Below are positions 6,025-28,160 of a stretch of DNA of 64,000 nt, piece after piece (the first letter of the stretch is position 1; the number at the start of each line of letters is the position of its first letter). The DNA is taken from assembly GCA_016866235.1 (NCBI GenBank), contig VGMW01000003.1:163625-227624 (forward strand). The letters are read 5' to 3'. A program made the translations under genes and the position numbers. The notes beneath the pieces were generated by a model that was not told the DNA's origin, did no database searches, and saw only the letters and a list, made by a program, of their open reading frames with translations. Origin of the DNA: Bacteroidota bacterium. Lineage in GTDB: Bacteria > Bacteroidota > Bacteroidia > Cytophagales > Cyclobacteriaceae.

Positions 6025-6108
6025 GTCGTAATCAGGCTGTAAAGATGCCGAAAAATCAGGCTCAAGATCCAATACAGCATCCACCAATCGGATCTTCAAG
6101 GATTCATC

Positions 6109-6116
6109 TATTTTTG
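6109..6116 (+). promoter_or_regulatory. TATTTTTG -7 box directly in front of mtaB
   Basis: The octamer TATTTTTG fits the Bacteroidota TAnnTTTG -7 consensus and ends only four bases before the GTG start of mtaB. If used, transcription would begin at or a few bases into the start codon, giving a leaderless message. No -33 TTG is visible about 20 bases upstream. Confidence 0.35.
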
Positions 6117-6120
6117 CCCC

Positions 6121-7458: not shown

Positions 7459-7499
7459 TGATATTTGAGATCATTTTTCAATAAGCAATAAAATACAAA

Positions 7500-7516
7500 G
7501 GGTCCCGATGGGACCC
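7500..7516. repeat. Short palindrome GGGTCCC-GAT-GGGACCC
   Basis: A perfect 7-bp inverted repeat with a 3-base loop lies 42 bases after the mtaB stop. It is the first of a set of similar palindromes in the 7459-8096 gene-free stretch. It could act as an mtaB 3' hairpin, but no T tract follows, so it is better read as a REP-like unit. Confidence 0.7.
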
Positions 7517-7549
7517 CATCGATCAATTAATTCCATAGCAAGAAGCAAT

Positions 7550-7566
7550 TGGTCGCGATGCGACCA
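7550..7566. repeat. Palindrome TGGTCGC-GAT-GCGACCA in tandem copy 1
   Basis: A perfect 7-bp inverted repeat with loop GAT lies in the centre of the first 168-bp copy. The outer bases (CAAT on the left, TTG on the right) would pair only with a bulge, in contrast to copy 2. Confidence 0.75.
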
Positions 7567-7717
7567 TTGTTGTTCATATAAGATCTTTTAGAATTCAACA
7601 ATAAATTGTGGATTCAATTGACCTATAAATCGTTTTAAAAATTTAATTACTAGAATCAAATATTAAGCCAGCCATCAAAGGTCCCATCGATCAATTAATT
7701 CCATAGCAAGAAACCAT

Positions 7718-7734
7718 TGGTCGCGATGCGACCA
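7718..7734. repeat. Palindrome TGGTCGC-GAT-GCGACCA in tandem copy 2
   Basis: The same inverted repeat lies 168 bases further on. Here the stem extends without a bulge to 10 bp (CATTGGTCGC with GCGACCAATG), because bases outside the core differ from copy 1 in a way that improves pairing. Confidence 0.75.
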
Positions 7735-7846
7735 ATGTTGTTCATATAAGATCTTTTTGAATTCAACAATAAATTGTGGATTCAATGGACCTATAAATCG
7801 TTTAAAAAAATTAATTACTAGGATCAAATATTAAGCCAGCGATCAA

Positions 7847-7863
7847 AGGTCCCATCGGGACCT
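7847..7863. repeat. Palindrome AGGTCCC-ATC-GGGACCT
   Basis: A perfect 7-bp inverted repeat with loop ATC lies at the right end of the second tandem copy. It is the reverse-loop form of the palindrome at 7500. Confidence 0.7.
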
Positions 7864-7897
7864 ATTGTCCTTAACGCACGAATTAAAATTCATATAA

Positions 7898-7914
7898 GGG
7901 TCCCATAGGGACCC
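7898..7914. repeat. Palindrome GGGTCCC-ATA-GGGACCC
   Basis: A perfect 7-bp inverted repeat with a 3-base loop, preceded by TTCATATAAG. That same phrase accompanies the palindromes in the two 168-bp copies, so this looks like a third, degenerate member of the repeat family. Confidence 0.7.
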
Positions 7915-8096
7915 ATTCATTCCTATTTCTAATTTTTCAAATCAATCAATTTCATTAGGACCATTATTATTTACGTGTCGTTAACAAATAATATGATGGA
8001 TCATCCAGGATTCAATCGACCCGTAAATCATTCCAAAAAATAAAGGCTAAAAAAATCTAAGTCTTGAAATGAAATGCAACCAATCGATAATAGCCC

Positions 8097-8756
8097 TTAA
8101 TCCCCCTCCACCACCAAGCCATCATTTAAGCGCAAGATTCGATCGGAAAGGTCAGCCAGCGCAGGGTTATGCGTAACCAACACAAACGTCTGACCCAATT
8201 CATTCCTAAGCTGTAGAAAAAGCTCATGCAATTCCGCCGCATTTTTTGAATCGAGGTTACCGCTGGGTTCGTCGGCTAAAACAAGGTCAGGCTTGTTGAT
8301 CAGTGCCCTGGCAACGGCAACACGCTGCTGCTCTCCTCCAGACAATTCCGATGGCTTATGATCCCCTCGGTCAGAAAGCCCTAAATAACCCAACAACTCT
8401 TTCACACGGTTCTCAAGCGCAACCATCGACGTGCCGGCAATCATGCCCGGGATCATGATGTTCTCCCTTGCAGAAAATTCAGGAAGTAGATTATGAAACT
8501 GAAAAATAAATCCAATATGCCTGTTCCTGAAGGCAGCCAACTGATTAGAATTTAAATTGAATACGTTCGTACCGCTGATCACCACCTCACCAGCATTCGG
8601 ATGGTCAAGGGTACCGATGATGTGCAACAAGGTTGATTTCCCGGCACCGGATGCCCCCATCACCGAAACAATCTCGCCTTGGGCAATGGTCAGATCAATG
8701 CCCTTCAAGACCTGAAGCGATCCATAGGATTTCTTTAATTGTCTGGCACTGACCAT
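8097..8756 (-). CDS. ABC transporter ATPase, LolD/MacB type
   Basis: This 219-residue nucleotide-binding subunit has Walker [10 protein letters not shown] at 34-42, the Q-loop [12 protein letters not shown], signature LSGGEQQ at 138-144, Walker B LVLADEP at 158-164 and the H-loop THN. The [12 protein letters not shown] wording and the short length are typical of LolD, which powers release of lipoproteins from the inner membrane, and of MacB-like exporters. No LolC/E-like permease lies next to it, so its partner is elsewhere. It is divergent from sucC, with 56 bases between the two starts. The fold is certain and the substrate less so. Confidence 0.85.
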
Positions 8757-8765
8757 GGCTTGGTG

Positions 8766-8796
8766 TTGAATTAAAGGTTTAAAAAATTTAGCTTGC
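8766..8796 (+). promoter_or_regulatory. Bacteroidota-type promoter for sucC
   Basis: TTG at 8766-8768, a 20-base spacer and TAGCTTGC at 8789-8796 closely match the TTG-N19/21-TAnnTTTG consensus. The predicted start site is about 10 bases before the sucC ATG at 8813. The moaE promoter has the same layout. Confidence 0.55.
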
Positions 8797-8812
8797 CACC
8801 AAATTCCGAGCT

Positions 8813-10024
8813 ATGAACATTCATGAATATCAGGCCAAAGATATCCTCAAAAAATTCGGCGTCGCAGTCCAGAACGGCATCGTTGCCGACACGCCCGACA
8901 AAGCACTGGCCGCAGCCAAAGAACTTCAGCAAACAACTGGTACTAAGTGGGTTGTAGTGAAATCTCAAATCCACGCCGGCGGACGGGGGAAAGGTACTAT
9001 TCGTGAAACTGGATCCCGTGGTGTCGTACTCGCTAAGTCGCTGGACGAAGTAGTGGAGAAATCCAAAGCCATCCTGGGCGGCACCCTTGTAACCCACCAA
9101 ACCGGTCCCGCCGGAAAAAAGGTCAGCAAGGTCCTAATCGCTGAAGATGTCTACTATCCAGGTGAATCAGAGCCTAAGGAATATTACATGAGCATCCTGT
9201 TGGATCGCGCGACCAGCAAGCCCGTTATAATGGCTTCAACCGAAGGCGGAATGAACATTGAGGAGGTTGCAGAAGCAACACCGGAAAAAATCATTAAGGA
9301 GTGGATCGATCCTGCTTATGGATTACAACCCTACCAGGCAAGAAAGGTTGCTTTTGCGCTAGGTCTGGAGGGTAATGCTTTCAAGGAAATGGTGAAATTC
9401 ATTCACTCGTTATACAGTGCCTACATAGGACTTGACGCATCGATGTTTGAAATTAACCCCGTCCTAAAAACCTCCGATAGCAAAATTCTGGCTGTTGATG
9501 GTAAGGTGAATCTCGATGACAATGCCTTGTTCCGCCACAAAGATTTGGAGGCATTGAGGGACATATCGGAGGAAGATCCACTTGAAGTGGAGGCAGGAAA
9601 ATCAGGATTGAATTACGTCAAGTTGGACGGCAACGTTGGTTGCATGGTCAATGGCGCTGGCTTGGCAATGGCGACAATGGATATCATCAAACTTTCAGGC
9701 GGTGAGCCAGCTAATTTTCTGGATGTCGGAGGTGGCGCGAATGCCCAAACCGTAGAAGCAGGTTTCCGAATTATCCTAAAGGATCCTAATGTAAAAGCGA
9801 TTTTAATCAATATTTTCGGCGGAATTGTGCGGTGCGATCGTGTAGCCAATGGTGTAGTGGAAGCCTATAAAAAGGTGGGTGATATCCCTGTGCCGATTAT
9901 TGTTCGGTTGCAGGGAACCAATGCGGAAGAGGGAGCAAAAATCATCCGTGAATCCGGATTAAAAGTATTTTCGGCCATTCTTCTGAAAGACGCTGCAAAA
10001 AAGATCTCGGAAGTATTGCAATAA
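8813..10024 (+). CDS. sucC: Succinyl-CoA synthetase (ADP-forming) beta subunit
   Basis: SucC joins with SucD to convert succinyl-CoA to succinate with formation of ATP or GTP in the TCA cycle. The product opens with the canonical [17 protein letters not shown] of the ATP-grasp domain, carries the GGRGKG loop, and ends with the CoA-ligase domain ([13 protein letters not shown], then [10 protein letters not shown], then [10 protein letters not shown]). The 403 residues match the usual length. sucD is not adjacent; sucC alone is separated here, which is common in Bacteroidota. The DUF6089 gene follows 37 bp downstream. Confidence 0.96.
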
Positions 10025-10061
10025 AACCTTTCTGGGTAAATTTAATCTCCAAAATTTCATC

Positions 10062-10928
10062 GTGGTGAGATTAAACCTTTTACTGATTGCGATCCTTCTA
10101 CCATTTATTTGTGACGCGCAATCGTTTTTTAATCTCCGAAGACATAGAAACCTTACAGTTTTCGCTGGTTCCGGGACTGCAGCATATTTTGGTGAATTAT
10201 CGAATCCTGGTAAGCTCAACAAGCCCAGGTATAGTTTCGTTGCAGGCTCTGAATTCTTTTTTCTGCCACGATTTTCATTGCGCGCAGAAGCCATTTGGTT
10301 CCGGATCGCAGGGGATGATGCGATTGCAAACGATGACCGAAAACTTCGCAACCTCTCCTTTTTTGCGAACAACAAAGAGTTCAACGCCGTAGCAACGGTC
10401 AATCTCGTGCCGCTACCCTCCCGGTTTGATCTTCGATCGTATTTTAATGTCTATGGTTTTGCCGGAATGGGATTACTGGTCATGAACCCGAAAACCAAGT
10501 ACGATGGAAAAACTTATGCCTTACAGCCCATTCAAACCGAAGGCGTGGCATACAGTCGATTTCAACCTGCCTTTCCGGTTGGATTTGGAATCCGATTCAC
10601 CTACAAAATGGCGGCAAGTATTGTCGCCGAGGGTGGCTATCGGTTTTTGAGAACAGATTACTTGGATGATGTAAGTGGAATTCCAGACCCTGATCGGCCA
10701 ACAAAAGGAAAGTTTCCAGATCCAGCCACGCTTTCAAGTGATATCGCTAGAACACTTTCAGATCGTAGTAACGGACAAGCTGTGGTCCGTGGAAATCCAA
10801 CATTTAACGATGGTTATTTCCTTTTCAACATCAAGCTGGAATACTATCTCGAGCATGCCTTTGACCCATTTCATAAGGATCGCCTGAAGACCATACGAGC
10901 CATAGATAAGGCCCCGAGGCGAAAATAA
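10062..10928 (+). CDS. DUF6089-type outer-membrane barrel protein
   Basis: The product begins with a signal peptide (about residues 1-19, ending CDAQ). It then shows the pattern I associate with the DUF6089/THC0290_0291 group of Bacteroidota: LTVFAGSGTAAYFGEL, a PRYSFVAGSEFFF strand, NNKEFNAVATVNLVP, VYGFAGMGLLVMNPKTKYDGKTY, and the late GYRFLRTDYLDDVSG. All point to a beta barrel anchored in the outer membrane. The start is GTG (10062 or 10065). A weak promoter (TTG 10015-10017, 19-base spacer, TAAATTTA) overlaps the end of sucC. It ends three bases short of the convergent 1501-residue gene. Function unknown. Confidence 0.75.
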   Translation: MVRLNLLLIAILLPFICDAQSFFNLRRHRNLTVFAGSGTAAYFGELSNPGKLNKPRYSFVAGSEFFFLPRFSLRAEAIWFRIAGDDAIANDDRKLRNLSFFANNKEFNAVATVNLVPLPSRFDLRSYFNVYGFAGMGLLVMNPKTKYDGKTYALQPIQTEGVAYSRFQPAFPVGFGIRFTYKMAASIVAEGGYRFLRTDYLDDVSGIPDPDRPTKGKFPDPATLSSDIARTLSDRSNGQAVVRGNPTFNDGYFLFNIKLEYYLEHAFDPFHKDRLKTIRAIDKAPRRK

Positions 10929-10931
10929 CCC

Positions 10932-13900
10932 TCATCGACTCACCACCCATTTGATCGTTTTTGTACTGGCTGATGTGCTGATTTCAACCAGATATACGCC
11001 TGGCTTGATGCCTTCGATGCTAAGTTCATTTCCAGGAGTTGGCTGATGTTTTTCCAATACCATTCTACCGAGTTGATCCCTGACCACAACCCTGACCAGA
11101 TGCTCACCTCCTGTAAAAATTCTAAATCTGCCGTCTGCAGATGGATTAGGATAAAGTCTGAATGCCTCCTTTGTGTCCATAAAATCCGCTTTACGCTTCC
11201 TAATGAAAAACCGGTTCAAGGAAACGCTGTCACGAAGTTCAAATGAATACGAACCCCCTGTAATCCTATGGGCTTCATTTAGTTCCCGATCAACAAGCTC
11301 CAGGTCATCCAAGTTAAACCCTGATGCTGGTTCAAATCGAAGGCTCATACTTGATGTTTTAGGTGCTCTTATTTCAATCGGTATTTCCGTAACATCCGAG
11401 ATGGCATAATGCGCCATGGACTGCCCATCTTCAGATCGGAGATTCACAGATAATTTCTCGCCAGGAAGGGCAAATCCATGTTGATGTGAATCAATATTAC
11501 CCTTTGATGTTGAGTTCATTACAAAGAAAGAACTTACCTCTGCTTGATCTGATTTAAGTATGATTCTTAGGTGTGGATAAATCGACGCTGACTGGCGATA
11601 AAACCGCGCCTGACTTGTTTTGGCTTGCTCATGTGCCACCAACCTTGGATTGGCTCCGGTGCTATGTATCCAGAAGGCCTGCCCCAGCGCGATCTTTCCA
11701 CCAGGTAAATCACCAATTCCTGTAGACGCGTCATAAGTTTTATAGGTTCCATTGGACACATCTTTAACAAATATCAGCGGATGGATATTCACCATTGGCC
11801 CTCCCCGACCATCAGACCATTTGGACGGATCCAATGACCAAACAATGTCCGAGGGGTAAGGATTCGCCACCAGGTTCCATCCATCATCGGGCCAGTTGGG
11901 TGGATTGGAGAACGTATGGGTGACTTTCAAATCAACATCGCCTCTTGATTCCCCTGACTTCAATTCACCCTTGACCGTCCAATGGAATCCCTTCCAGGCC
12001 CAGTAGTCATTTGGCATAAGTATATACCCTCTACCAGACCACAATGGACTGGTAAAACCCTGTCGAACAAACCCATAATCCTTATACCCGAGTACAGTTT
12101 CTTCATAACTGTAGGAATATCGAAGGTTAAACCAATCGCAAGGAACTAGGTCCTGGAAACGGGCACCTGACACCGGACTACCAATGTAGCGGTAATCCCG
12201 ACCCACCGGAGGCATGTACCGTCTAACTGAAATCTGTCCAATAAGCCGTGTGGTTAACGGTATTGGATCGATCCCGGCAGACCCCGCAGGACTTGTCTCT
12301 AACACCAGCAGTCCATCGCCACAATGGAGAATCGAATGATCGCCCAGTTTGAGCCTGCCTGTAAGATTTATTCCCGTTTGAACGGTAACCGTATCCTTTG
12401 TAAGAACTTTTAGATCACGTACCGCGAGCCTATGAGTACCTGAAATGATCTGCTTTCCCTGCCCGATTAAATCCACCTGTGCCGAATCAGCATGGATTGG
12501 GCCGTTCAACCTTAGATCTCCCCCAATTTGTACCTGCTCTGGAATTAACAGTGATCCCGAAACAGTCAAATGATTCAATGCTAGCGGTGCATTACCCTTC
12601 AATTGACCTTCACCTGAAAATTGAACAGTACCATTCGCCGCTTCAAAAACTCCATTGTTGTCAAAAATCCCATCAATCTCCATGACTGCAGGTGCTTTGA
12701 TGTATGCATTATTGACCACGGAGCCAGTCTTTAATGTATCACCTGTTATTTTAAATCTACCACTATTGATTATCAATGATTTATCAATCTCTAATTGATT
12801 TAAAATCTCAATTGAATCTTTCACTCCAACCACCACATTATTCAAGGAACCTAGGGCCTCATTTCCTGATTTCATGGATTGTCCATAATAATAAAGGTCA
12901 TAGGATCCCGATCTAGGCGGTATGCCCGTGTATTCAGCACTAGACCATCTGATCACTTTTGAATCAGTCCCAATGGTTAATGAGTCGGTAAGATTTGCAA
13001 GTCTACCATTAGACAGGATCAATGAGTCAGAAACCATAACCGCCCGATTTAATGAAACCACACCCCCAAGGTCAACCTTCATTGTACTTAAAGCACCTCT
13101 TGACTCCGGGCCAGCCTCCAATGAATTGAATACCTGCCCACTTGCATATTCCAGATGGTAGGGGCCTCCGGTCGGTGGATTTGAATTCAATGCCGCTAAA
13201 GCAGCGTCGGGTGTTCTGATTATGGAGGCATTAGGATCCATGGAAAGGAAATTTCCAACCTCAAACTCACCATCCTTCAGAAAAAGCTGACCTGTAATAT
13301 TGAGTGGTGACTTTAAACGAATGTGCGGCGTGATCGGAACGCCAGTAATAGGATTGGTCTGCGCAGATCTGTCCAATATGAGTTTTCCAAGGTTATTCGC
13401 GGAACCTGAGAAGGCAAGGTTGTTATCAATCCCTCCGAAGGCTGATGTAATCAGCAAAACTGAACTCATGTCGGACATCAGGACTCCGTTAGGCTGGTTG
13501 GTCTGGATGTTTCTTTGTAGCTCTAGGCTCGTGCCACCAAAATCCAGTCTGCCGCCGAATAGAATCATCGGGGAAATTATTTTAAGTGGTGCCGTTATTT
13601 TCAGATCACCAGATTGGATGGTCAGTCCACCGGTGTATCCTGATGCAGTGGAAAAATTTCCAAGTACCAGTTCCTGATCGATTTGTAATCGGGTATTTCC
13701 TCCGGGAATATTCAGATTTAGTGATTCTAGGTTAAAAGGTTGATCAACTGGAAATGATCTGGAGAAAACCCTTGGTGAACCACCAATGTTAACCTGAGAA
13801 TTATTTCCACGGAATTGAATAAATCGACTTCCCCTGAAATCACCATTTAAATTGAGGACAGTATTCCCCGTATTGGACGTAAGGCTACTGGAAATCACCA

Positions 13901-15437
13901 TGCCATTTCCTTCCAACACCAATGCGCCATCGACCGTAAGTGCCACAGCCGATGTTTGATTACTGGTATTTACCTCTATACCACCACCGGAGATATCCAG
14001 ATTACCCCTGACCGTCAGGTTATTTTTAGACACCACGAGATTACCTCGTATAATAGAGAGATCACCTCCGCAAACAGCAGTTGTACCGGTGGCTGCGGTG
14101 GATACCCCTGTGGAATTATCAATGATGGATTTAACTCCACTGGTTGATGGATGGTCACCTCCAATAAATTGTGGACTTGTGCCGCCATAAATAATGGTTG
14201 ATCCTGAACGCCAGGTTTGTGTTCTGACCTTTATGGAACCATTATTGTTCTGCCCTTTTTGAATGGCACCCAGCGGGTCAGATGACTCCACGATCAATGT
14301 CGCGCCGCCGGTAAGGTCACCACATTCGAAAGTGTTACCGACAAAACTTGATCCATCAGGAACCCTTACAAATGCACCTGGTGCCAGATGATAATGGAAT
14401 GATCCTACGATATTTCCACGATTGATGAATAGCTGTGTTGTTCTTCCCTCTAAAAACAAATCCCCTACCCGATTGGAGTAAGCAACACTGGCATCAATGG
14501 TACCGCCCTCTAAACGAAAGTCACCCTTTACCCTCAAATCAGCACCAGAGGAAGATGTACCACCGGATCCGCTGCTGAAATAGAGTAAGCCCTGATTCAT
14601 AAAAAATCTACCCGCAATATTGAACACTGAAATTCCTTGTTCACAGTATCGTGATCCAAGTGGATTGGAAGACCGAAAATTAAAATCACCACCTACGGAA
14701 ACCGTTACTAAACTATTGCATAACCCTGTTTTTGAAATAGAGAATCTGGCGCTTCCATCAACATTAAAATCACCACCGATTGAAAGATTGTGGTTGGAAG
14801 CTTTGGTTAGCCTAAGGACTTGTCCATTGGTCGTTTTTATGGTGAAGGAGCCGCTAATATTGCTCAGTAAACCATTCAAAAAGAAGTCGGCTGTGAGCAG
14901 AGGTGTATCCCAAACCACATTTCCGAAAGATTGTGACCATTGTCCAGCGGACGTAGCCTCGGTGGTTGATGTATAGCCAATGATAGAAACAGTTGAAAAA
15001 TTTGACCAGCTGGCCAAAGGAATGACACCCTCTGAATCTGAGAAGTTGTGCAGATAGGTAGATTCCGGACCGAAAATTAGGCCATCGCGGTCACCTTGAA
15101 GTGCGCCTCGATTGATGATCTTTCCACCCGATCCAACGATAAGGTATCGGTTTGAAGGCCCCTTGGTTACTTCAGCTGTTGAGGAGAGTTCTAGTGTTCC
15201 AAGGATAAGCGTGTTATCAAGCGCAATCTTTTCGTTGATCAACAGTTGATGCCCTGATTGCACGGTTATGGAATCGCTGCTTGCATTTGGGAATGTACTG
15301 GATGTAATCCATCCGCTGGTTGAATAAACTTCCCAAACCGTTTTATCGATCCAGTTTCCACTTTTTGCAGATCTGAATACCTGCGAATAAGAAGGGATGC
15401 AAAAAAGTAGAAATAGTAAAGGCGTTAGAATTTTCAT
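10932..15437 (-). CDS. Large T9SS-secreted surface protein (1501 aa, type A sorting domain)
   Basis: A signal peptide (residues 1-18, ending SYSQ) is followed by an opening typical of Bacteroidota surface proteins (FRSAKSGNWIDKTVWE, then DSITVQSGHQLLIN). About 1000 residues of repetitive beta-strand text follow (INRG..., LVLEGNG..., GNLVVSKNNLTVRGNLDISGG), suggesting a long right-handed beta-helix stalk. A second globular part (about 1080-1330) carries WFNLRYSYSYEE and NLVANPYPSDI, as in T9SS proteins with no enzymatic domain. The last 75 residues form a type A sorting domain with the YPNPSADGRF motif, ending KTIKWVVSR. It would be exported by T9SS and anchored to the cell surface; adhesion is an inference. 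No catalytic motif seen. Confidence 0.85.
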   Translation of the reverse strand: MKILTPLLFLLFCIPSYSQVFRSAKSGNWIDKTVWEVYSTSGWITSSTFPNASSDSITVQSGHQLLINEKIALDNTLILGTLELSSTAEVTKGPSNRYLIVGSGGKIINRGALQGDRDGLIFGPESTYLHNFSDSEGVIPLASWSNFSTVSIIGYTSTTEATSAGQWSQSFGNVVWDTPLLTADFFLNGLLSNISGSFTIKTTNGQVLRLTKASNHNLSIGGDFNVDGSARFSISKTGLCNSLVTVSVGGDFNFRSSNPLGSRYCEQGISVFNIAGRFFMNQGLLYFSSGSGGTSSSGADLRVKGDFRLEGGTIDASVAYSNRVGDLFLEGRTTQLFINRGNIVGSFHYHLAPGAFVRVPDGSSFVGNTFECGDLTGGATLIVESSDPLGAIQKGQNNNGSIKVRTQTWRSGSTIIYGGTSPQFIGGDHPSTSGVKSIIDNSTGVSTAATGTTAVCGGDLSIIRGNLVVSKNNLTVRGNLDISGGGIEVNTSNQTSAVALTVDGALVLEGNGMVISSSLTSNTGNTVLNLNGDFRGSRFIQFRGNNSQVNIGGSPRVFSRSFPVDQPFNLESLNLNIPGGNTRLQIDQELVLGNFSTASGYTGGLTIQSGDLKITAPLKIISPMILFGGRLDFGGTSLELQRNIQTNQPNGVLMSDMSSVLLITSAFGGIDNNLAFSGSANNLGKLILDRSAQTNPITGVPITPHIRLKSPLNITGQLFLKDGEFEVGNFLSMDPNASIIRTPDAALAALNSNPPTGGPYHLEYASGQVFNSLEAGPESRGALSTMKVDLGGVVSLNRAVMVSDSLILSNGRLANLTDSLTIGTDSKVIRWSSAEYTGIPPRSGSYDLYYYGQSMKSGNEALGSLNNVVVGVKDSIEILNQLEIDKSLIINSGRFKITGDTLKTGSVVNNAYIKAPAVMEIDGIFDNNGVFEAANGTVQFSGEGQLKGNAPLALNHLTVSGSLLIPEQVQIGGDLRLNGPIHADSAQVDLIGQGKQIISGTHRLAVRDLKVLTKDTVTVQTGINLTGRLKLGDHSILHCGDGLLVLETSPAGSAGIDPIPLTTRLIGQISVRRYMPPVGRDYRYIGSPVSGARFQDLVPCDWFNLRYSYSYEETVLGYKDYGFVRQGFTSPLWSGRGYILMPNDYWAWKGFHWTVKGELKSGESRGDVDLKVTHTFSNPPNWPDDGWNLVANPYPSDIVWSLDPSKWSDGRGGPMVNIHPLIFVKDVSNGTYKTYDASTGIGDLPGGKIALGQAFWIHSTGANPRLVAHEQAKTSQARFYRQSASIYPHLRIILKSDQAEVSSFFVMNSTSKGNIDSHQHGFALPGEKLSVNLRSEDGQSMAHYAISDVTEIPIEIRAPKTSSMSLRFEPASGFNLDDLELVDRELNEAHRITGGSYSFELRDSVSLNRFFIRKRKADFMDTKEAFRLYPNPSADGRFRIFTGGEHLVRVVVRDQLGRMVLEKHQPTPGNELSIEGIKPGVYLVEISTSASTKTIKWVVSR

Positions 15438-15534
15438 GGTCTTTTTTGACCACGAAAATGATTAACCGGTTACTTTCAGGCTACGGGAAAAACACCCAAT
15501 TGGAAGGGGATTTTGACGGGTTTTTTTGGCCTGC

Positions 15535-16674
15535 CTACCCTTCCGAAACTCTAAATTTATAATAAGTTGATTTGAATTCAGGGACTATCTCTTTCATCAA
15601 GGCTACCATTTTTAGTTCATTCCGATCCTGAATCAACTCATAAAACAGATCAACTAAAATTGAGATTTCTTTAAAGTCCATTTCTTGAATCTTTGCCTTC
15701 AAAATTTTTGGATGGTGTGTAGGAATGGTGTTTTCAGTTTGATAGAATAATTCCTCAGATAGCTTTTCGCCCTCACGCAGACCTGTAAATACAATTTCAA
15801 TATCTTTTCCTTGTTCTTTACCCGACAATTCAATCATTCTTTTAGCCAGGTCTAAAATGCTAATTGGCGTACCCATATCAAAGAGAAAAATTTCTCCTCC
15901 CTGACCAATTGCACCTGCTTCGAGGACAAGCCTGCATGCCTCCGGTACAGACATAAAATATCGACACACCTCGGGATGAGTAACTGTAAGAGGTCCACCA
16001 GATTTAATTTGACGTTGGAAAATCGTGAAGACTGAGCCACTGGAACCCATTACATTACCGAACCGCGTAGTAACAAATTGAGCATATCCGTAATTAGATT
16101 TTCCCAAAGACTGCACATAGAGCTCCGCGACCCTTTTCGTGCAGCCCATGATACTTGTAGGATTTATAGCCTTATCGGTTGAAATCATAATGAACTTTTC
16201 AACTCCAAATTTAAGCGCAAAGTCAGCAACTATTTTTGTCCCAAGTATATTAACACGGACGGCCTCAGAAGGATTTTTTTCCATCATCGGTAAATGCTTA
16301 TACGCGGCAGCGTGATAGATGACTTCAGGCTTGAATTCCTCGAATATAGATTCCATTCTACCCTTATCTGTTACATCGGCAAGCAAGTAAACCAAGCGTG
16401 CCTTTCCCTTGATCTCAGCAAGCTCCAATTCAAGTTCGTACAGCTGTGTTTCTACCTAATCAACTAAGATTAGGACACGAGGCTGAAGGTTTAATATTTG
16501 CCTGAAGAGTTCAGAGCCTATGGAACCTGCAGCCCCTGTAATTAAAACAGACTTGTTAACGGTGGTTGACAAGAGAACGCTGTCAGATAAAACAATTTCA
16601 TCTCTACCAAGAACATCTTCTACGGTGAAGTTTTTTATTTTACTTAATTCATCCTTAATTATTCTATCCTTCAT
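15535..16674 (-). pseudogene. Remnant of a CapD/WbpM-type polysaccharide epimerase/dehydratase: 5'-truncated, in-frame amber codon
   Basis: Read on the minus strand from 16674, the frame carries the interdomain linker (VEDVLGRDEI), the NAD-binding TGAAGSIGSEL loop and then VLILVD. A TAG stop at 16458-16456 follows, and the frame continues with VETQLYELELELAEI, the AAAYKHLP motif, the STDKAINP catalytic segment (Lys of the YxxxK-like site) and the normal C-terminus. The stop lies exactly where relatives have a Gln in VDQxE, so a single CAG-to-TAG change explains it. About 250 residues of the usual four-helix membrane domain and first Rossmann domain are missing upstream; double stops lie 60 bases before the ATG. 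Intact relatives make UDP-sugar intermediates for capsule and exopolysaccharide. Probably dead. Confidence 0.85.
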
Positions 16675-16746
16675 GTCAGAGTATTTAGGTCGTTTTTTAG
16701 GATGTTATCATGAAAACAAATCCAATGAAGGACCAAAAAAATAAAG

Positions 16747-16950
16747 TCATAAGGACTGACTTTTTTTAGTAGAGAATCTTGTAATCAGAAGGGAAAAAAT
16801 AAATCCAGAAAAGCAACCCATGATCACCAACATCCATATGAAATCATCAACGGGCACGGTACCAGGGTTGGATGGCGGCGGAGGAGGTTGCCCAGCCATC
16901 AAGTCAACAAAAGAGATACTATAAATGACAAATAATAAGAATCTTTTCAT
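16747..16950 (-). CDS. 67-residue membrane peptide with PPPPP and VD motifs (possible sorting-signal peptide)
   Basis: The product has a signal peptide (about residues 1-19, ending LMAG), then GQPPPPPSNPGTVPVDD, one hydrophobic helix (about 38-58) and a short basic tail (TRFSTKK). This layout of a Pro-rich stretch, a Pro-Ile/Val-Asp motif, a transmembrane helix and basic residues resembles the tiny PID-CTERM-like sorting proteins found near exopolysaccharide genes in Bacteroidota. It sits between the remnant epimerase and a headless T9SS fragment, so it may be a survivor of a decayed surface-polysaccharide locus. The family assignment is from memory of the pattern and is uncertain; no enzyme partner is in the window. 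Confidence 0.6.
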   Translation of the reverse strand: MKRFLLFVIYSISFVDLMAGQPPPPPSNPGTVPVDDFIWMLVIMGCFSGFIFSLLITRFSTKKSQSL

Positions 16951-16965
16951 TCGGATATACTCAAA

Positions 16966-17535
16966 TTAATGTTTTGGAATAATTAATTTCTTCATTTGTT
17001 GACCCGAGCTATGAGTCAATTTCAGGAAATATACACCCGGCTTAAACTCAGTTAAATCAATTCGATTATCAGTTAGCCCTGAAAAATGACTGATCTTCAA
17101 CCCTGAAGAATTAAATATCTGCAATACACAATCTGAGATTCTTTGATTGGAATTGATAAATACAAAGTTACTAAGTGAAGGATTTGGATAAATTTCAAAT
17201 GCCAGGAAATCCTTTTTTGTTTTTGGCTTAAGGGAGAGATAAAACCTATCTCTAACGTCATTACCGGGTTCATGAACAACAAAATCATATTTCCGATTTT
17301 CAATAAGCACAGAGTGACCAGTATAGTTATCAATAAGATAAAGATTGTGACTAAAAATAAAATCTTCCGCAAACTCAAAATTTAAACTGTACAATCCTTT
17401 ATCTCGCACCCTATAACCAATTGGAATTCTCAAAGAATCAAGTATCGAAAGTTTGGTGAACTCAGGATTTAATTTGTTTTGAATTAAGACATCTAGGAAA
17501 CTCGCACTCCCGCGTGTTCCTTTTCTAATCCTCAC
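16966..17535 (-). pseudogene. Headless fragment of a T9SS type A surface protein
   Basis: The frame holds 189 residues without a signal peptide. Its content is the pre-terminal beta region of T9SS cargo proteins (LSILDSLRIPIGYRV, then LYLIDNYTGHSVLI and DRFYLSL), followed by a complete type A sorting domain (FEIYPNPSLSNFVFI to KKLIIPKH). Such C-termini normally end proteins of 500-2000 residues. The nominal GTG start overlaps the stop of the 624-residue gene upstream, and there is no room for an export signal. It therefore looks like the 3' end of a gene whose 5' part was lost by recombination. A short translated product could not reach the T9SS. Confidence 0.75.
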
Positions 17536-21761: not shown

Positions 21762-23660
21762 ATGCTTTCAATAAACAACATTTCATACTTCATTGGCGGT
21801 CGAGCCCTCTATGAAAATGCTTCTGCGGTGGTCAAACCGGGCGACCGCATCGGACTGATAGGGCTAAATGGCAAAGGAAAGTCTACCCTACTGAAAATTA
21901 TTGAAGGCTCTATTACGCCTGACGCCGGTACGATTAGTAAGAGTCGAGATTGCACCATTGGATTTCTAAATCAGGACCTCTTATCCTTTCAGTCCGACGA
22001 CCCGATTCTGGAGGTTGCGCTTGGCGCATTCCGGGAGGCTCGTGAGGTTCATGCGGAAATCGATAAAACCATCCATGAGATGGAAACCAATTACTCAGAT
22101 GTATTGGTTACCAAGCTCACCAACCTGCAGGAAAAATTTGAGCAGCTGGATGGTTACACCATGCAGGCACGAGCAGAGGAAGTTCTGGAGGGAATTGGAT
22201 TTTCTACCACCGATTTGAGTCGTCCACTGCGACAATTCTCCGGTGGTTGGCGCATGAGGGTTATGCTCGCCAAGCTCCTATTGGAAAAGCCATCCTTATT
22301 GATGCTGGATGAGCCTACCAACCACCTGGATCTTCCCTCCATTGAATGGGTTGAGAATTACCTGAAAAATTATGATGGCGCGGTAATGGTGGTTTCACAC
22401 GACCGGGTTTTTCTAAACGGAGTCACCACCAAAACCATCGAGGTGACCAACCAGCAGCTGGTCACTTATGAGGGTAATTATGATTATTATCTGACTGAAA
22501 AAGAACTCAGGGAAGAAATTCAGCAAAATGCATTTGAAAATCAGCAACAAAAAATAAGACAAGCAGAAAGATTCATAGATCGCTTCAGGGCCAAAGCCAC
22601 CAAAGCCCGTCAGGTTCAATCTAGGATTAAGATGATTGAGCGGATGGACATGATTGAGGAAGTCACTGATGATCAGGCTTCAGTTAATTTTCGGTTTAAT
22701 TTGAAGCAGCAGAGCGGAAGGAATGTTGTTCAGCTTAATCATATTTCAAAGTCGTATGGTGATCTCTCCATTCTTAAGGACACAACCATAACGATTGAAC
22801 GTGGTGATAAAATTGCGTTGATTGGCGCCAATGGAAGAGGAAAATCAACCTTGTTAAGGATTTTATTTGGATCAGAGCCTATTGAAGGCGAGCGGATCGG
22901 AGGATACAATGTGATTACCGGGTTTTATGCACAGCACCAATTGGAATCGCTGCATGTTGAAAATGAAATACTGGATGAACTCAAACAGGCGGGATCTGGA
23001 AAAACAGACCTTGAACTAAGAAATGTCCTGGGGTGTTTTTTGTTTTCAGACGACGATGTGTTCAAAAAAATCAAGGTTTTGTCCGGTGGAGAAAAATCGA
23101 GGGTTGCGCTGGCAAAAACACTGATTTCAGAAGCTAATTTTTTGCTCCTGGATGAGCCTACCAACCACCTTGATTTCATTTCAGAAAATATTTTGGTTCA
23201 AGCCTTACAGCAATACCAGGGATCGTTTGTGATTGTCTCCCACAACCGACATTTCATTTCTCAGGTTGCCAATAAAATCTGGTACATCGAAGACGGACAA
23301 ATCAAACAATATCCTGGTACCTACGAAGAGTATCAGTATTGGAAGACCAAACAGGTCAAGCTTGAACCTGAAGTCAAAGTTGCTCCTAAGCCAAAGGAGG
23401 TGAAACAGGAGAAGCAGGAAAAGAAAACTGATCCTGGTTTTCCGAAAAAGGACCTTGAAAAAAAGATTTCAAAAGTTGAAGAGGAGATTGCAGCGCTTGA
23501 AACAGAGAAAAGGGGGATTGAATTGGAGATGGCTATGCCTGAAACTTATAGTCAACCTGACCGGTTTCAGGAATTGAATGACAAGCGCATCAAATGTGAG
23601 GATTCGCTTAGGGTTAAAAATCAATATTGGACCGATTTGATGGAAAAGCTTGATAACTAA
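21762..23660 (+). CDS. ABC-F family ATPase (Uup/EttA-like)
   Basis: A soluble protein has two ABC cassettes and no membrane segment. Cassette one has Walker A GLNGKGKST, signature FSGGWRMR and LLMLDEPTNHLD. A linker rich in Gln, Lys and Arg follows (QQQKIRQAERFIDRFRAKATK), typical of the ABC-F P-site tRNA interaction motif. Cassette two has GANGRGKST, LSGGEKSR and LLLDEPTNHLD. The last about 100 residues are a Lys/Glu-rich coiled coil, as in Uup. These proteins act on the ribosome, relieving stalled translation. The 632 residues fit. One base separates its stop from the likely GTG start of the T9SS plug gene. Confidence 0.92.
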   Translation: MLSINNISYFIGGRALYENASAVVKPGDRIGLIGLNGKGKSTLLKIIEGSITPDAGTISKSRDCTIGFLNQDLLSFQSDDPILEVALGAFREAREVHAEIDKTIHEMETNYSDVLVTKLTNLQEKFEQLDGYTMQARAEEVLEGIGFSTTDLSRPLRQFSGGWRMRVMLAKLLLEKPSLLMLDEPTNHLDLPSIEWVENYLKNYDGAVMVVSHDRVFLNGVTTKTIEVTNQQLVTYEGNYDYYLTEKELREEIQQNAFENQQQKIRQAERFIDRFRAKATKARQVQSRIKMIERMDMIEEVTDDQASVNFRFNLKQQSGRNVVQLNHISKSYGDLSILKDTTITIERGDKIALIGANGRGKSTLLRILFGSEPIEGERIGGYNVITGFYAQHQLESLHVENEILDELKQAGSGKTDLELRNVLGCFLFSDDDVFKKIKVLSGGEKSRVALAKTLISEANFLLLDEPTNHLDFISENILVQALQQYQGSFVIVSHNRHFISQVANKIWYIEDGQIKQYPGTYEEYQYWKTKQVKLEPEVKVAPKPKEVKQEKQEKKTDPGFPKKDLEKKISKVEEEIAALETEKRGIELEMAMPETYSQPDRFQELNDKRIKCEDSLRVKNQYWTDLMEKLDN

Positions 23661-23661
23661 A

Positions 23662-24930
23662 GTGAATATTGTTGATCTACTAAGAAAAAGTTCATTGGTC
23701 ATCATCCTTTTGATGCTATTGAGCGAAGTTCAGGGGCAGCCTTTGAATGGAATAGAAATTCCAGACGGCAAGATCAAATCCATTATGATCTATCAGGAGA
23801 CTGGAGGACCTTATCAGGAAATGCAATCGCCTGCAGCACCATTAGAAGAACAACGGTTGGTGGTAGAGTTCGATGATTTGCGCGAGAATTCCGAAACCTA
23901 TTACGCTAAAATTTTGCATTGTGACCACCGTTGGTCCAGGTCAAGGTTAAGAGACCTGGATTTTCTTGCCGTGTATAATGAATTCAATCTTAATGATTTT
24001 GCCTTTTCCAACGATACGCACATACCCTATGTGCATTTCAGATTTCCGATACCGGAAGTGAAACTTCCTGGGAATTACATTTTATTGGTTTACAGGGATG
24101 GTGACTTAAAAAATCTTGCTTTTTCAAGAAGGTTCATGGTGTTCAGCAATCAGATGATGGTGGCACCAATGAATAGGCCGGGACAAGGAACCTTATATCG
24201 AAATCTTCAGGAAATCAATTTCTCGGTAAGCTATGCAGGACTGAATATCCCTGATCCGACCGCAAATATTTTTGTGGTGGTCCGACAGAACAATCGATGG
24301 GATAATGCTCTATATGGGCTCACCCCATCCAGAACAGATACATACCGCGAAAATCTGGAGTTCCAGTTTTTTGATCAGCGATCGGCCTTCAGGGCGGGCA
24401 ATGAATTCAGATTTGTTGATTTCAGTTCACTGAATTTTCCAGGCAGGAACACCGGTTATGTTGATAAGAGCAAAAAACCATTTCATGTTTTTGTTGGGCT
24501 TGACCGAACACGTGGAAGTGAGGCCTACGCGCAGTTTGGTGATTTGAATGGAAACTTCATCGCCGGGAATCGTGATTTTGGCAATGGAGCGGTTACGGGA
24601 CAATATGTCTATGTTCATTTTAAAATGGAGCAAACCGGACTACCGGATGACGCGATATATGTTGGAGGAAATTGGTCCGACTGGTCTACCGCTGAGGGTT
24701 ATCGAATGAAGCCTGCCGCAGACGGAACGTTGGAAGCGATGGTTTTATTGAAACAAGGATATTATGACTATTGCTATTTCACACAACAATCTTTCAAGTC
24801 AGGCAATCCCATCGAGGGAGACCATTCCATGACGGAAAACAGCTATGAAATTTTGGTGTATAACCGAAATTTTCAGAGTGGTGCAGAGATGCTGATGGGA
24901 TACAGCAGGTTTAGCCTTAATGGCCGCTAG
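23662..24930 (+). CDS. T9SS plug protein (DUF5103)
   Basis: The product has an uncleaved-looking short N-terminus and then a signal peptide (ending EVQGQP). The DUF5103 body follows: KSIMIYQETG, LEEQRLVVEFDDL, YYAKILHCDHRWSRSRL, PYVHFRFPIPEVKLPGNYILLVYRDGD, and a long beta region ending MGYSRFSLNGR. The family was found bound to the SprA channel as the protein that closes it from the periplasmic side. I prefer the GTG at 23662, directly after the ABC-F stop, to a TTG at 23650 that would overlap it. It ends inside the 3' end of the convergent Cas6-like gene (14-base overlap). It agrees with the T9SS cargo genes elsewhere in the window. Confidence 0.85.
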   Translation: MNIVDLLRKSSLVIILLMLLSEVQGQPLNGIEIPDGKIKSIMIYQETGGPYQEMQSPAAPLEEQRLVVEFDDLRENSETYYAKILHCDHRWSRSRLRDLDFLAVYNEFNLNDFAFSNDTHIPYVHFRFPIPEVKLPGNYILLVYRDGDLKNLAFSRRFMVFSNQMMVAPMNRPGQGTLYRNLQEINFSVSYAGLNIPDPTANIFVVVRQNNRWDNALYGLTPSRTDTYRENLEFQFFDQRSAFRAGNEFRFVDFSSLNFPGRNTGYVDKSKKPFHVFVGLDRTRGSEAYAQFGDLNGNFIAGNRDFGNGAVTGQYVYVHFKMEQTGLPDDAIYVGGNWSDWSTAEGYRMKPAADGTLEAMVLLKQGYYDYCYFTQQSFKSGNPIEGDHSMTENSYEILVYNRNFQSGAEMLMGYSRFSLNGR

Positions 24931-25729
24931 CAGTGATCCTGGATGACTGGGAAACCAATACTGGTTCCCCGGCGTTGTTTGCCAGATCTAACATACCAAA
25001 CCCCTTATGGGTTGAGTGGCCAAGGCCATGTTTGTATACGAATTCCAGCACTTTAGGGGAAGCAAAAAGCGTAAATGGAAAAGTATATCCCCTGAGTTCA
25101 TAACGGATATCGGAATCGAACATCGGATAGATCCTGGAGAACTTCTTGTGGCTGTCATCGAGCCGCTTTAAATAATCCTTATCAGGCACCAGTTGAAAAC
25201 GATAGAATGCTGAAAGCTCTTCCGGCGAGAATCTGCCGGATGATTCCATTCTGGCCAGCGTCAATTCATAAAGCAAATCAGAAAATTCATCTGATTCTGG
25301 TGAAATGAACCGTTTTTGATCTTCCTCTCCGAAAGTGGCAGGCAATAAAGCCAGCGGCGAAAGGCATAAAAACTTTCCATATTCAGTGAAGCTGACTTCG
25401 GGTTCGCGTTCAAATCGTTCTGGTGAAAGGTTTAGGTTTCCAACCATTACCTCTCCCACTGAAAAAAGGGATTTTTCAAAATAGTCGATGAAATCCTCAC
25501 TGCCGGAGGAGATCACAAGGGTAACCTTTTGGGAGAAAAAATGAAGGCCTTGCCGGGAGATTTTGGTCTGACCTTTCAAACCGGAGAAGTTGAAATCCTG
25601 AAAATCCAGGTATTGCTTCTGACCTCCCTTCACGAGCACGCCCCGTATTACCTGGGCAATAAGGAACTGGTGGTGGAACGGAACGTAAGCACCTCTGTTT
25701 TTAAGATCAAAGATTAACCGGACTCTCAA
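24917..25729 (-). CDS. Orphan Cas6-like RNA endonuclease-fold protein
   Basis: The 270 residues have the Cas6 layout: an N-terminal RAMP strand (RVRLIFDL, then VPFHHQFLIAQVIRGVL), the FNFSGL and KVTLVISS strands, a second RAMP domain, and the hallmark glycine-rich loop GLGHSTHKGFGML at 235-247. Cas6 normally cuts CRISPR precursor RNA. Here no array and no other cas gene are in the window. The His commonly found on the first helix, just before the F-x-FS strand, is not evident (VLVKGGQKQYL); His19 and His20 lie earlier. It may therefore be inactive or act differently. It sits between ychF and the T9SS plug gene, a housekeeping neighbourhood. Confidence 0.8.
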   Translation of the reverse strand: MRVRLIFDLKNRGAYVPFHHQFLIAQVIRGVLVKGGQKQYLDFQDFNFSGLKGQTKISRQGLHFFSQKVTLVISSGSEDFIDYFEKSLFSVGEVMVGNLNLSPERFEREPEVSFTEYGKFLCLSPLALLPATFGEEDQKRFISPESDEFSDLLYELTLARMESSGRFSPEELSAFYRFQLVPDKDYLKRLDDSHKKFSRIYPMFDSDIRYELRGYTFPFTLFASPKVLEFVYKHGLGHSTHKGFGMLDLANNAGEPVLVSQSSRITASGH

Positions 25730-25897
25730 ACCACTTGAGGATTAGGCCAAAAAATGGGTTACCTAAACCAAAAAATATTTTGGATTAAGCTAAACTACTT
25801 AAAATCAGGTAAATCCGAAAGAGTTAGAGGCCTAGTACAGCCTTAGGTTTTAATTAAATATAAGATAAATAGGTATTATAGACTGATAATCAATCTA

Positions 25898-27001
25898 TTA
25901 TACATTAAATCGGAAGTGCATAACATCGCCATCAGCCACCACATATTCCTTGCCTTCAATGGCCAATTTGCCTGCGTCGCGGCAACCGGACTCGGTACGG
26001 TACTTTTCGTAGTCAGGGATTTTAATGACTTCAGCCCTAATAAATCCACGTTCAAAATCAGTGTGGATAACGCCTGCAGCCTGAGGGGCTTTCCAGCCCT
26101 TTTGAATGGTCCAGGCTCTGACTTCTGTCTCACCAGCCGTGAAGTAGGTAATGAGGTTTAAAAGATGGTAGGCAGCCCGGATGAGCTTCTCCAGACCAGA
26201 TTCGGTTAGTCCATATTCAGCCAGAAAAACCTTTCTGTCTTCAAGGGATTCCAACTCGGCTATTTGGGCTTCCAGGGCAGCAGAAACCACCACCACTTCT
26301 GCACCCTCGTCCTTTACCAAATTCCTGAGCGCCTCCACATGTTCGTTGCCTGTGCTCACCGATGATTCATCGACGTTGGCAACATAAATGACGGGCTTCA
26401 ATGTCAACAATTGTAAATCGAAAATGGCCTTTAGATCATCTTCGTCCGCCTGCACAGCCCTGGCATTTTTACCTTCCAGCAATGCCTGTTTAAACTTCAA
26501 CAGTGATTGAAGCTCCTTTTTTGCCTTCGCATCCCCACTCTTTGCCGTACGCTCAACCTTGGAAATCTTCTTTTCCACCGACTCCAGGTCTTTAAACTGG
26601 AGCTCTGTATCAATGACCTCTTTATCGTAAATGGGATTTACCTTGTTATGCACGTGCACAATGTTGTCATCGTCGAAACAACGGATAACATGTGCAATAG
26701 CATCTACCTCACGGATGTGGGCAAGGAATTTAGAACCCCGACCAATGTCTTCGCTTTGACTGGCTCCCTTGATCAGGCCGGCTATATCAACGAATTCAAA
26801 TGTTGTTGGTACAATTTTTTTGGGATTTACCAGTCTTGCCAGGATGTTCAACCTTTCATCCGGAACCATTACAACGCCAACGTTTGGCTCGATGGTACAA
26901 AACGGAAAATTGGCCGCTTCTGCCTTATTGTTGGAGAGTGCATTAAACAAGGTGGACTTGCCAACGTTGGGCAAGCCTACTATACCGCATTTTAAACCCA
27001 T
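25898..27001 (-). CDS. ychF: Redox-regulated ATPase YchF
   Basis: This Obg-family P-loop protein (OLA1 group) prefers ATP. It opens with [23 protein letters not shown] (P-loop GLPNVGKST), has the [18 protein letters not shown] switch [11 protein letters not shown] (G3), a noncanonical NxxE-like region ([13 protein letters not shown]), and the C-terminal TGS domain ([17 protein letters not shown], ending [11 protein letters not shown]). The 367 residues match the family. It binds ribosomes and has roles in oxidative-stress control in other bacteria. Its start is 49 bases from the end of the mutarotase gene. Complete and conserved. Confidence 0.96.
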
Positions 27002-27050
27002 AATTGCTTTACAATCGGGCGCAAATATAGAAAGAACAGGCTCTGTTCAA

Positions 27051-28160
27051 TCAGCGTACACCAAACCTGTAGATGGTCCTTTGACGGTAGGTTTGTCCGG
27101 GCTTTAAAACTGTTGAAGGGTAATCCGGTTTATTTGGTGAATCGGGGTAATGTTGCGCTTCCAGGCAAAAGGCAGAACGAAATTCATAGGGTTTTCCACC
27201 CTTTCCGATGTCTCGTCCACTTAAAAAATTACCGGAGTAGAACTGTAAACCAGGCTCGGTGGTGAATACCTCCATAATTCTTCCTGAGGAGGGCTCAGAT
27301 ACCCTTGCCGCCAACGATAATTCTCCAGGTGTCTTTTTATTCAACACCCAGCAATGGTCGTATCCATTTCCCCGCTTTAATTGTTCATTTTCAATTGAGA
27401 TCCTCTCCCCTGCGGCGTGGGGATTCATAAAATCAAATGGTGTTTCTGTTACGGGCGCTGGCGCTCCGATTGGGATTAGTCCGGCATCAACCGGTAGGTA
27501 TTGATCAGCAAAAAGTTCAAAGCTGTGATCAAGGATATCACCACTCCCCTCACCCTTCAAATTAAAAAATGAATGGTGGGTTAGGTTAACGACCGTCTCG
27601 CGGGTGGTCACAGCCACATAGTCAATGATCAGTTCATTGTTGTCGTTGACCAGATATGTAACCGTTGCGGTAAGTTTGCCCGGATAACCCTCTTCCCCGT
27701 CTTCACTGATGTAAGTTAATTTCAAGGCATCGTGTCCATCAACATCTTCCTGTTTGGCTGACCACAAAACATTATGAAAACCATTTGGACCTCCATGAAG
27801 GGCATTGGCCCCATTGTTGGTGGCTAGCTTGAAGGTGTCGTTGCCTAGAATAAAATTTCCATTGGCGATGCGATTACCATACCGACCGATCAGTGCGCCA
27901 AAATATGGGTTGCCTTGTGGATACTGAGTAACGGAATCATATCCCAAAACAACATCTGCGAAGTTTCCGGAACGATCAGGCACGAGCAGTGAAACGACTT
28001 TACCACCAAAATTGGTGATGGTGACCGTCATTCCGGAGGCTCCTTTAAGGGTGAATAATTTTAATGACATATCATCTTCAGTTTGTGAGGCTTGCTCTGA
28101 ATTTTTTACGCAGCCGGTCAGTACAATGGCCAGGCCTATTAAGGTGGTGATGGTTTTCAT
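27051..28160 (-). CDS. galM: Periplasmic aldose 1-epimerase (galactose mutarotase), lipoprotein
   Basis: The product interconverts alpha and beta anomers of aldoses. A lipobox (VLTGC, Cys17) places it on a membrane facing the periplasm. The mutarotase fold motifs are present: LTITNFGGKVVSLLVPDR, GRYGNRIANG, the catalytic His region (VNLTHHSFFNL), and the catalytic Glu segment FCLEAQHYPDSPN near the C-terminus. The 369 residues are usual for the family. It lies downstream of the M1 aminopeptidase gene with a four-base overlap, so both are probably one transcript. Confidence 0.9.
   Translation of the reverse strand: MKTITTLIGLAIVLTGCVKNSEQASQTEDDMSLKLFTLKGASGMTVTITNFGGKVVSLLVPDRSGNFADVVLGYDSVTQYPQGNPYFGALIGRYGNRIANGNFILGNDTFKLATNNGANALHGGPNGFHNVLWSAKQEDVDGHDALKLTYISEDGEEGYPGKLTATVTYLVNDNNELIIDYVAVTTRETVVNLTHHSFFNLKGEGSGDILDHSFELFADQYLPVDAGLIPIGAPAPVTETPFDFMNPHAAGERISIENEQLKRGNGYDHCWVLNKKTPGELSLAARVSEPSSGRIMEVFTTEPGLQFYSGNFLSGRDIGKGGKPYEFRSAFCLEAQHYPDSPNKPDYPSTVLKPGQTYRQRTIYRFGVR

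Follow-up and report, generated by a model that had tools for sequence, protein, structure and literature searches.

What does a Cas6-like protein do when its gene lies between two core genes, with no CRISPR array beside it? The question is posed by cas6L, a gene in a window of 64,000 nucleotides (positions 163,625 to 227,624 of contig VGMW01000003.1, assembly GCA_016866235.1) from a Bacteroidota bacterium of the family Cyclobacteriaceae, order Cytophagales. Its product, Cas6L, belongs to a distinct Cas6-fold family present in many genomes that lack cas1. The best overall explanation, offered tentatively, is that Cas6L is a Cas6-fold RNA-binding protein which acts outside CRISPR, is predicted not to cut, and takes part in the same process as YchF, a ribosome-binding ATPase. 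The components of this explanation differ in strength. Action outside CRISPR is highly probable; RNA binding without cleavage is predicted, and somewhat favoured; a shared process with YchF is a credible but uncertain proposal.

That Cas6L has the Cas6 fold, as the first-pass annotation of this DNA had argued, is borne out by its predicted structure and by matches to Pfam PF01881 (63.4 bits, cut-off 23), NCBIfam TIGR01877 (67.7 bits, cut-off 58.65) and PADLOC Cas6b (87.2 bits). In common with the proteins defining the first two profiles, it has a repeat-associated mysterious protein (RAMP)-type fold and a C-terminal glycine-rich GFG loop, located at residues 235-247 (GLGHSTHKGFGML), where that annotation had placed it. 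It differs from them in the absence of the catalytic triad, in a loop some 12 residues shorter and in having no cas partner found in its own genome. The closest folds are those of PfuCas6nc (PF0393, PDB 3UFC) and PH0350 (PDB 3QJJ), Cas6-related archaeal proteins of Pyrococcus with 18-20% identity to Cas6L, so that by fold it resembles the PfuCas6nc type of non-catalytic Cas6; 3UFC is termed non-catalytic in the excerpted text of PMC3652601. Cas6L is distinguished from both by its occurrence in Bacteroidia, its link to ychF and its own set of invariant residues.

Within a sample of 241 genomes of the order, searched at a threshold of E at most 1e-5, 132 have a match and the scores are bimodal: 129 genomes, the Cas6L carriers, have one match at E<1e-40 and three have weak matches alone (about 3e-6). 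Eight of the carriers have an extra weak match of another kind (5e-9 to 8e-6), and one genome (G166) has a short second fragment with one stop. The twelve weakly matching proteins (L111-L122) served as CRISPR-type controls; an array was called by the detector at 5 of these 12 loci and at none of L001-L110, L123-L130 or L200-L219, the detector not having been run on L131-L150. A pattern scan with one genome per species yielded 343 stretches encoding a relative, and among the best 80 of the 343, which were retained, the named carriers are Cytophagales such as Pseudochryseolinea, Chryseotalea, Ohtaekwangia, Fulvivirga, Algoriphagus and Cesiribacter. A family protein is also present in Echinicola vietnamensis. 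Two of the 80 have metagenome-assembled genome titles from outside Cytophagales, Chitinophaga (L005) and Bacteroides (L012), and are taken as misnamed bins. Confinement to the order was suggested by a phylum sample of 296 genomes, in which the 8 strong matches all came from the family of the bacterium itself and 26 genomes matched only weakly. It was overturned by a class search (31-row profile, 395 genomes), which matched 27 genomes strongly (E at most 3e-53) and 7 more weakly: 9 of the 27 belong to the own family and 18 lie outside the order (codes f88, f103, f121, f129 and f135), so that Cas6L is not confined to the order, though patchy outside it. An origin on a mobile element was also rejected, there being no match in phage and one plasmid record with Cas6L, a 602-kb replicon of Bernardetia (L173, gene 6001-6813). 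On this replicon purQ lies three genes upstream, and no cas gene is present among the 11 other features of the 12.7 kb read.

A protein that does not cut is suggested by the state of its active site. In PfuCas6 this consists of Tyr31, His46 and Lys52, according to the excerpt of PMC3652601. Separate alignments and a joint MAFFT alignment, in which residue numbers of 3pkm were taken to run five ahead of the paper's, give as equivalents in the window protein residue 29, a gap and residue 44. Across 157 aligned Cas6L rows (139 from the order and 18 from outside it; 147 distinct sequences) the full Tyr-His-Lys triad occurs in none of the 139 and none of the 18. The histidine column is a gap in all 139 rows from the order, as against a His in 9 of the 12 controls, and remains so in all 157; the first-pass remark that the protein has no obvious helix histidine is right. 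Tyr, His and Lys/Arg stand together in all 21 Cas6 proteins from the phylum's other classes, as they do in 11 of the 13 weakly matching Cas6 proteins of the class (group C), the neighbouring cas locus having been checked for some of these controls. The stretch from Q21 to S49 is 27 residues long in 107/139 Cas6L rows and 39-40 in 9/12 controls, a shortening of the catalytic loop by some 12 residues relative to the majority of CRISPR-type Cas6. Position 29 in the order is K in 113 rows, R in 6 (R in the window protein), Q in 6, E in 4, D in 4 and another residue in 6, and is mixed outside the order; a K or R stands at position 44 in 6/139 and 3/18 rows. By contrast with this loss, K52, R199 and D248 are present in 157/157 rows, and H20 and K195 in 156/157 each, K195 being replaced once by R. 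These patterns are unchanged on the 147 distinct sequences and on 137 rows at 97% identity. A second kind of triad-less Cas6 was encountered in the two exceptions of group C, L116 (9548-10333, genome G049) and L120 (8060-8812, G193), which cluster in the tree (100/98); cas1 is without a match in G049, and inspection by eye showed no cas gene among the open reading frames at 6.1-13.1 kb of L116.

Loss of the histidine is not in itself decisive. SsoCas6 (Sso1437) has no active-site His, like Cas6L, and yet cuts by means of a network of basic residues, as the excerpt of PMC3652601 describes. Cas6L might accordingly be an active endoribonuclease of this kind, with a site rebuilt around H20, K52 and R199 and processing a housekeeping RNA. 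The near-invariance of those three residues and the K or R at position 29 in 119/139 rows of the order speak for it. Outside the order, however, position 29 is R once, His once (L211) and non-basic in the remaining 16/18. SsoCas6 is moreover a dimeric processor of CRISPR RNA (crRNA) which keeps the third Lys of the triad, whereas in 148/157 Cas6L rows this position has no K or R. H19 and H20 had been pointed out at first as histidines lying earlier in the protein; H20 has proved to be conserved, but it cannot alone substitute for the lost His, since it lies outside the PfuCas6 triad and a His at this position is also found in 2/21 other CRISPR-type Cas6 and in 10/20 Cas6b, which have a His elsewhere. 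A rebuilt nuclease is thus regarded as unlikely, though it is the foremost rival to a protein that binds RNA without cutting it.

The proposed tie to YchF derives from gene order. Comparison of synteny, a check suggested by the first-pass annotation, finds ychF directly upstream of cas6L on the same strand in 79/80 named loci (the exception begins at a contig end), in 28/29 further loci, in 7/28 mostly distant loci of the order and in 6/18 loci outside it; the sets overlap, with six identical Cas6L pairs between the first two, and L106 and L138 are one genome. In an all-against-all comparison of 50 loci ychF is the most widespread neighbour, found at 17 loci and always upstream on the same strand, and with four close loci removed it is a neighbour in 13/46 loci and 10/17 family codes. 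Other neighbours recur to a lesser extent. A DUF3276-like gene (PF11680 in one tested) lies upstream of ychF in 9 loci from 7 label groups, giving the order DUF3276-like gene, ychF, cas6L at L147 (5484-7025) and similar loci. A transglycosylase-like gene (PF00912 domain in one tested) follows cas6L on the same strand, within about 60 nt or overlapping, in 8 loci (f88, f135, f129), for example L207 (3241-5196) and L211 (6197-8140). In eight distant loci (L123-L130) cas6L lies among unrelated genes. Two of these, L129 (3444-4233) and L130 (9963-10502), contain a tandemly repeated open reading frame encoding the peptide EQTGLEPATPCVTGRYSNQLNYCSSH, which we take to be a spurious translation of tRNA gene repeats.

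In the window the neighbours are the core genes that had been named at the outset, ychF (PF06071, 132.7 bits) and a type IX secretion system (T9SS) plug protein gene (PF17116, 105.1 bits), the 3' end of which overlaps cas6L. The bases upstream of cas6L, described in the first-pass annotation as free of CRISPR repeats, are so: the detector finds no CRISPR-like array anywhere in the window, the region 24000-27200 holds two-copy imperfect repeats and no others, and at gathering scores Rfam gives no match in the window. Among the close relatives read, on the other hand, roughly half have a constant motif in the gap between ychF and cas6L, in most cases with a small hairpin after it. TTTATAA or TTTAGC was found in 53 of 111 leaders, those loci of the 111 with fewer than 120 bases upstream having been skipped. 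The TTTATAA form ends 65-74 nt before the start codon (30 rows used, part of L001-L086) and is followed by a stem-loop with a 5-bp stem and a 14-nt loop, the CCGCT...AGCGG hairpin. Pairing was counted in 30 rows (21 distinct) of the 35 with the TTTATAA form, after L002, L022, L025, L054 and L099 had been dropped beforehand as out of register: 93.3% of 105 cells pair, compared with 88.4% in shuffles (0/500 as high) and 30-58% when the register is slid. Two of the five pairs are altered on both sides, a level attained by 22/500 shuffles.

Such a hairpin invites the suggestion that Cas6L is chiefly an autoregulator, binding its own leader so as to tune its own expression or that of ychF. The paired stem after TTTATAA in part of the close clade, the two pairs changed on both sides and the CCAAAA/TTTTGG found at the hairpin position in the window leader are consistent with this. 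Nevertheless the motif is limited to the leaders counted above, the rows compared are related, no equivalent motif or hairpin was seen in distant families (by eye, single folds) and RNAalifold found no structure in 26 wide leaders. The hairpin as a universal ligand of Cas6L was accordingly rejected. Its possible roles are those of a terminator for ychF, a leader and a ligand; the first comes into consideration because a run of T follows several of the hairpins. Autoregulation as the main role is therefore considered improbable. The features of the locus are collected in Table 1.

Table 1. Features of the cas6L locus (window coordinates)
Feature	Coordinates	Strand	Remarks
cas6L	24917..25729	-	Cas6-fold protein, 270 aa, TTG start
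Cas6L residues 17-21, PFHHQ	25667..25681	-	includes H20
Cas6L residues 48-56, FSGLKGQTK	25562..25588	-	includes K52; loop before strand shortened
Cas6L residues 195-201, KKFSRIY	25127..25147	-	includes K195 and R199
Cas6L residues 235-248, glycine-rich loop GLGHSTHKGFGMLD	24986..25027	-	includes D248
ychF-cas6L intergenic region	25730..25897	-	168 bp; CRISPR-like array not found
Inverted repeat CCAAAATATTTTTTGG	25768..25783	-	site of the CCGCT...AGCGG hairpin in many close relatives; candidate leader RNA
ychF	25898..27001	-	conserved upstream neighbour, same strand as cas6L
T9SS plug protein gene	23650..24930	+	convergent neighbour, 14-bp overlap with cas6L

The first-pass annotation had left room for a Cas6 that serves an array elsewhere, and had proposed a genome search for cas1 and cas7. 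In the own assembly (2.77 Mb, 12 contigs, 95% complete) there is no match for cas1, DevR-type Cas7, PF10040 Cas6, Cas5, Cas9 or Csm1, whilst cas2, cas3 and arrays were not part of the search; the single PF01881 match is cas6L itself, with no second Cas6. The same searches were positive among 14 control genomes for cas1 (9), DevR (2), PF10040 (2), Cas5 (6), Cas9 (4), Csm1 (7) and PF01881 (5), the positives lying above cut-off in 0/4 cases for Cas9 and 3/7 for Csm1. Across the order sample cas1 occurs in 97/241 genomes: in 71 of the 129 carriers and in 26 of the 112 non-carriers. Since 58/129 carriers lack cas1, Cas6L does not depend on it. The 71 carriers with cas1 include 28 that have a second PF01881 protein, and the 58 without cas1 include 6 (p=2e-4). 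Where the cas1 score exceeds 270 bits, such a protein is present in 23 of 24 carriers, the exception being G121; a high-scoring cas1 is thus accompanied by another Cas6 in all cases but one.

A role for Cas6L in trans on CRISPR arrays, or as a spare Cas6, would account for its co-occurrence with cas1, for the carriers that have cas1 and no second PF01881 protein, and for its score above the NCBIfam equivalog cut-off. The own genome without any of the cas genes tested, the carriers without cas1, the other Cas6 beside nearly every high-scoring cas1, the missing triad and the inheritance of the gene beside ychF all argue against it, and it is judged very improbable. Service to an array elsewhere, as first envisaged, is therefore unsupported; its rejection goes as far as the cas genes searched and does not extend to arrays genome-wide, cas2 or cas3.

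Phylogeny and selection likewise indicate a family with a history of its own. The Cas6L rows form one branch in each of three trees (100/99; 100/100; and 100/98 with the rows from outside the order). The trees are unrooted; that Cas6L came from CRISPR, and not the reverse, is suggested by its narrow range. Cas6b proteins (PADLOC type PDLC02101) share with Cas6L the short loop and the P-F-x-H/Y region. They nonetheless have His at position 29 in 20/20 sequences, as against 1/157 for Cas6L (L211), and K at position 52 in only 3/20, their D248 is not constant whereas both residues are invariant in Cas6L, and in the one case read (L121) the gene lies in a cas operon; Cas6L is a separate clade (100/100). 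That case had been a candidate ancestor. L121, from G041, where it is the latter of two Cas6 in a type I-B operon, first stood beside Cas6L (99/94, long branch) and moved into the Cas6b clade after 19 more Cas6b were added; it also has the Cas6b His at position 29, and descent from it was rejected. The operon (7498-17342) is type I-B-like with two tandem Cas6 genes, the usual His-loop Cas6 (8638-9465) and the Cas6b (9462-10130), then Cas5b and Cas3b, with cas1 and an array further on.

In close pairs cas6L is under strong purifying selection: the median ratio of nonsynonymous to synonymous rates (dN/dS) is 0.020 over 17 pairs (range 0.007-0.149; 85-99.5% protein identity, dS below 1.5). Cas6L distances track those of YchF (Mantel r 0.64 over 74 loci, 0/999 permutations as high), and the median identity among close loci is 67% in Cas6L, compared with 79% in YchF (both 74 loci) and 48% in the T9SS plug protein (75 loci). 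Deep members of the family (n=33) share 31-96% pairwise identity. None of the 129 strong matches from the order has an internal stop; a stop is spanned by 4 of the 18 strong class-search matches outside the order, and in L202, L209, L216 and L217 it lies beyond the end of a full-length frame. That Cas6L is a decaying, functionless CRISPR remnant, as the deleted catalytic loop might suggest, is scarcely credible in view of this selection, the residues kept invariant across such divergence and the intact frames in the order.

The explanation set out at the beginning, of a non-cutting RNA-binder outside CRISPR associated with YchF, would run as follows. An ancestor shared by several orders of Bacteroidia would have recruited a CRISPR Cas6, which would have kept its fold whilst leaving CRISPR and losing the known Cas6 cutting chemistry. 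The invariant basic set K52, K195 and R199, together with H20, would contact RNA, presumably a housekeeping RNA and not a CRISPR repeat, and Cas6L would aid YchF or share its regulation. The route to a non-cutting RNA-binder is made plausible by a point raised in the excerpt of PMC3652601, that Cas6 may be as important for a chaperone-like action as for cleavage. A more specific version, in which a cleavage-dead Cas6L is an RNA chaperone working with YchF, and possibly with the DUF3276 protein, on structured cellular RNA across several Bacteroidia orders, is doubtful. The initial idea of a domesticated Cas6 is supported as far as departure from CRISPR is concerned, to which distribution, synteny, selection and residue patterns all point.

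Several observations weigh against this explanation. The example of SsoCas6 (excerpt of PMC3652601) means that loss of the His is no proof of lost cutting. No RNA partner of Cas6L was found. The adjacency to ychF fails in 21/28 and 12/18 of the distant loci, and could be a chance arrangement preserved by slow rearrangement. Cas6L and cas1 occur together above expectation (Fisher p=5e-7, uncorrected for phylogeny and genome size), which argues against full independence from CRISPR, and of the 71 carriers with cas1, 43 lack a second PF01881 protein; in all of these but G121 the cas1 is lower-scoring, and their crRNA may be processed by another Cas6 family, Cas5d or RNase III. Finally, the own genome is incomplete and in contigs, with arrays, cas2 and cas3 outside the search, and the DevR and PF10040 controls were positive in just 2/14 genomes each and Cas9 in 4/14, none above cut-off.

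We know of no earlier housekeeping gene made from a CRISPR processing nuclease. The open-access literature yielded no description of the Cas6L family, preprints and most subscription papers not being covered. The novelty lies in a family that many genomes have without cas1, that adjoins ychF and that spans several orders of its class, the closest known kind being the non-catalytic Cas6. The reuse of CRISPR parts as reviewed in the excerpt of PMC8730458 concerns effector modules and repeat RNAs; in Streptomyces, for instance, Cas proteins have found a new use in an I-E-derived module that has no array and lies next to a STAND NTPase. This is an effector module of four genes, whereas Cas6L is a lone gene beside a core gene.

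There is also a consequence for annotation. A first protein search returned 1,380 proteins, some perhaps true CRISPR Cas6, and the named entries among the 120 listed of these are all called 'CRISPR-associated endoribonuclease Cas6'. Many Bacteroidota proteins of that name are probably misnamed, and a survey that infers CRISPR from the name would arrive at wrong counts. If the explanation preferred here is true, a CRISPR nuclease is able to become a core gene of bacterial RNA metabolism.
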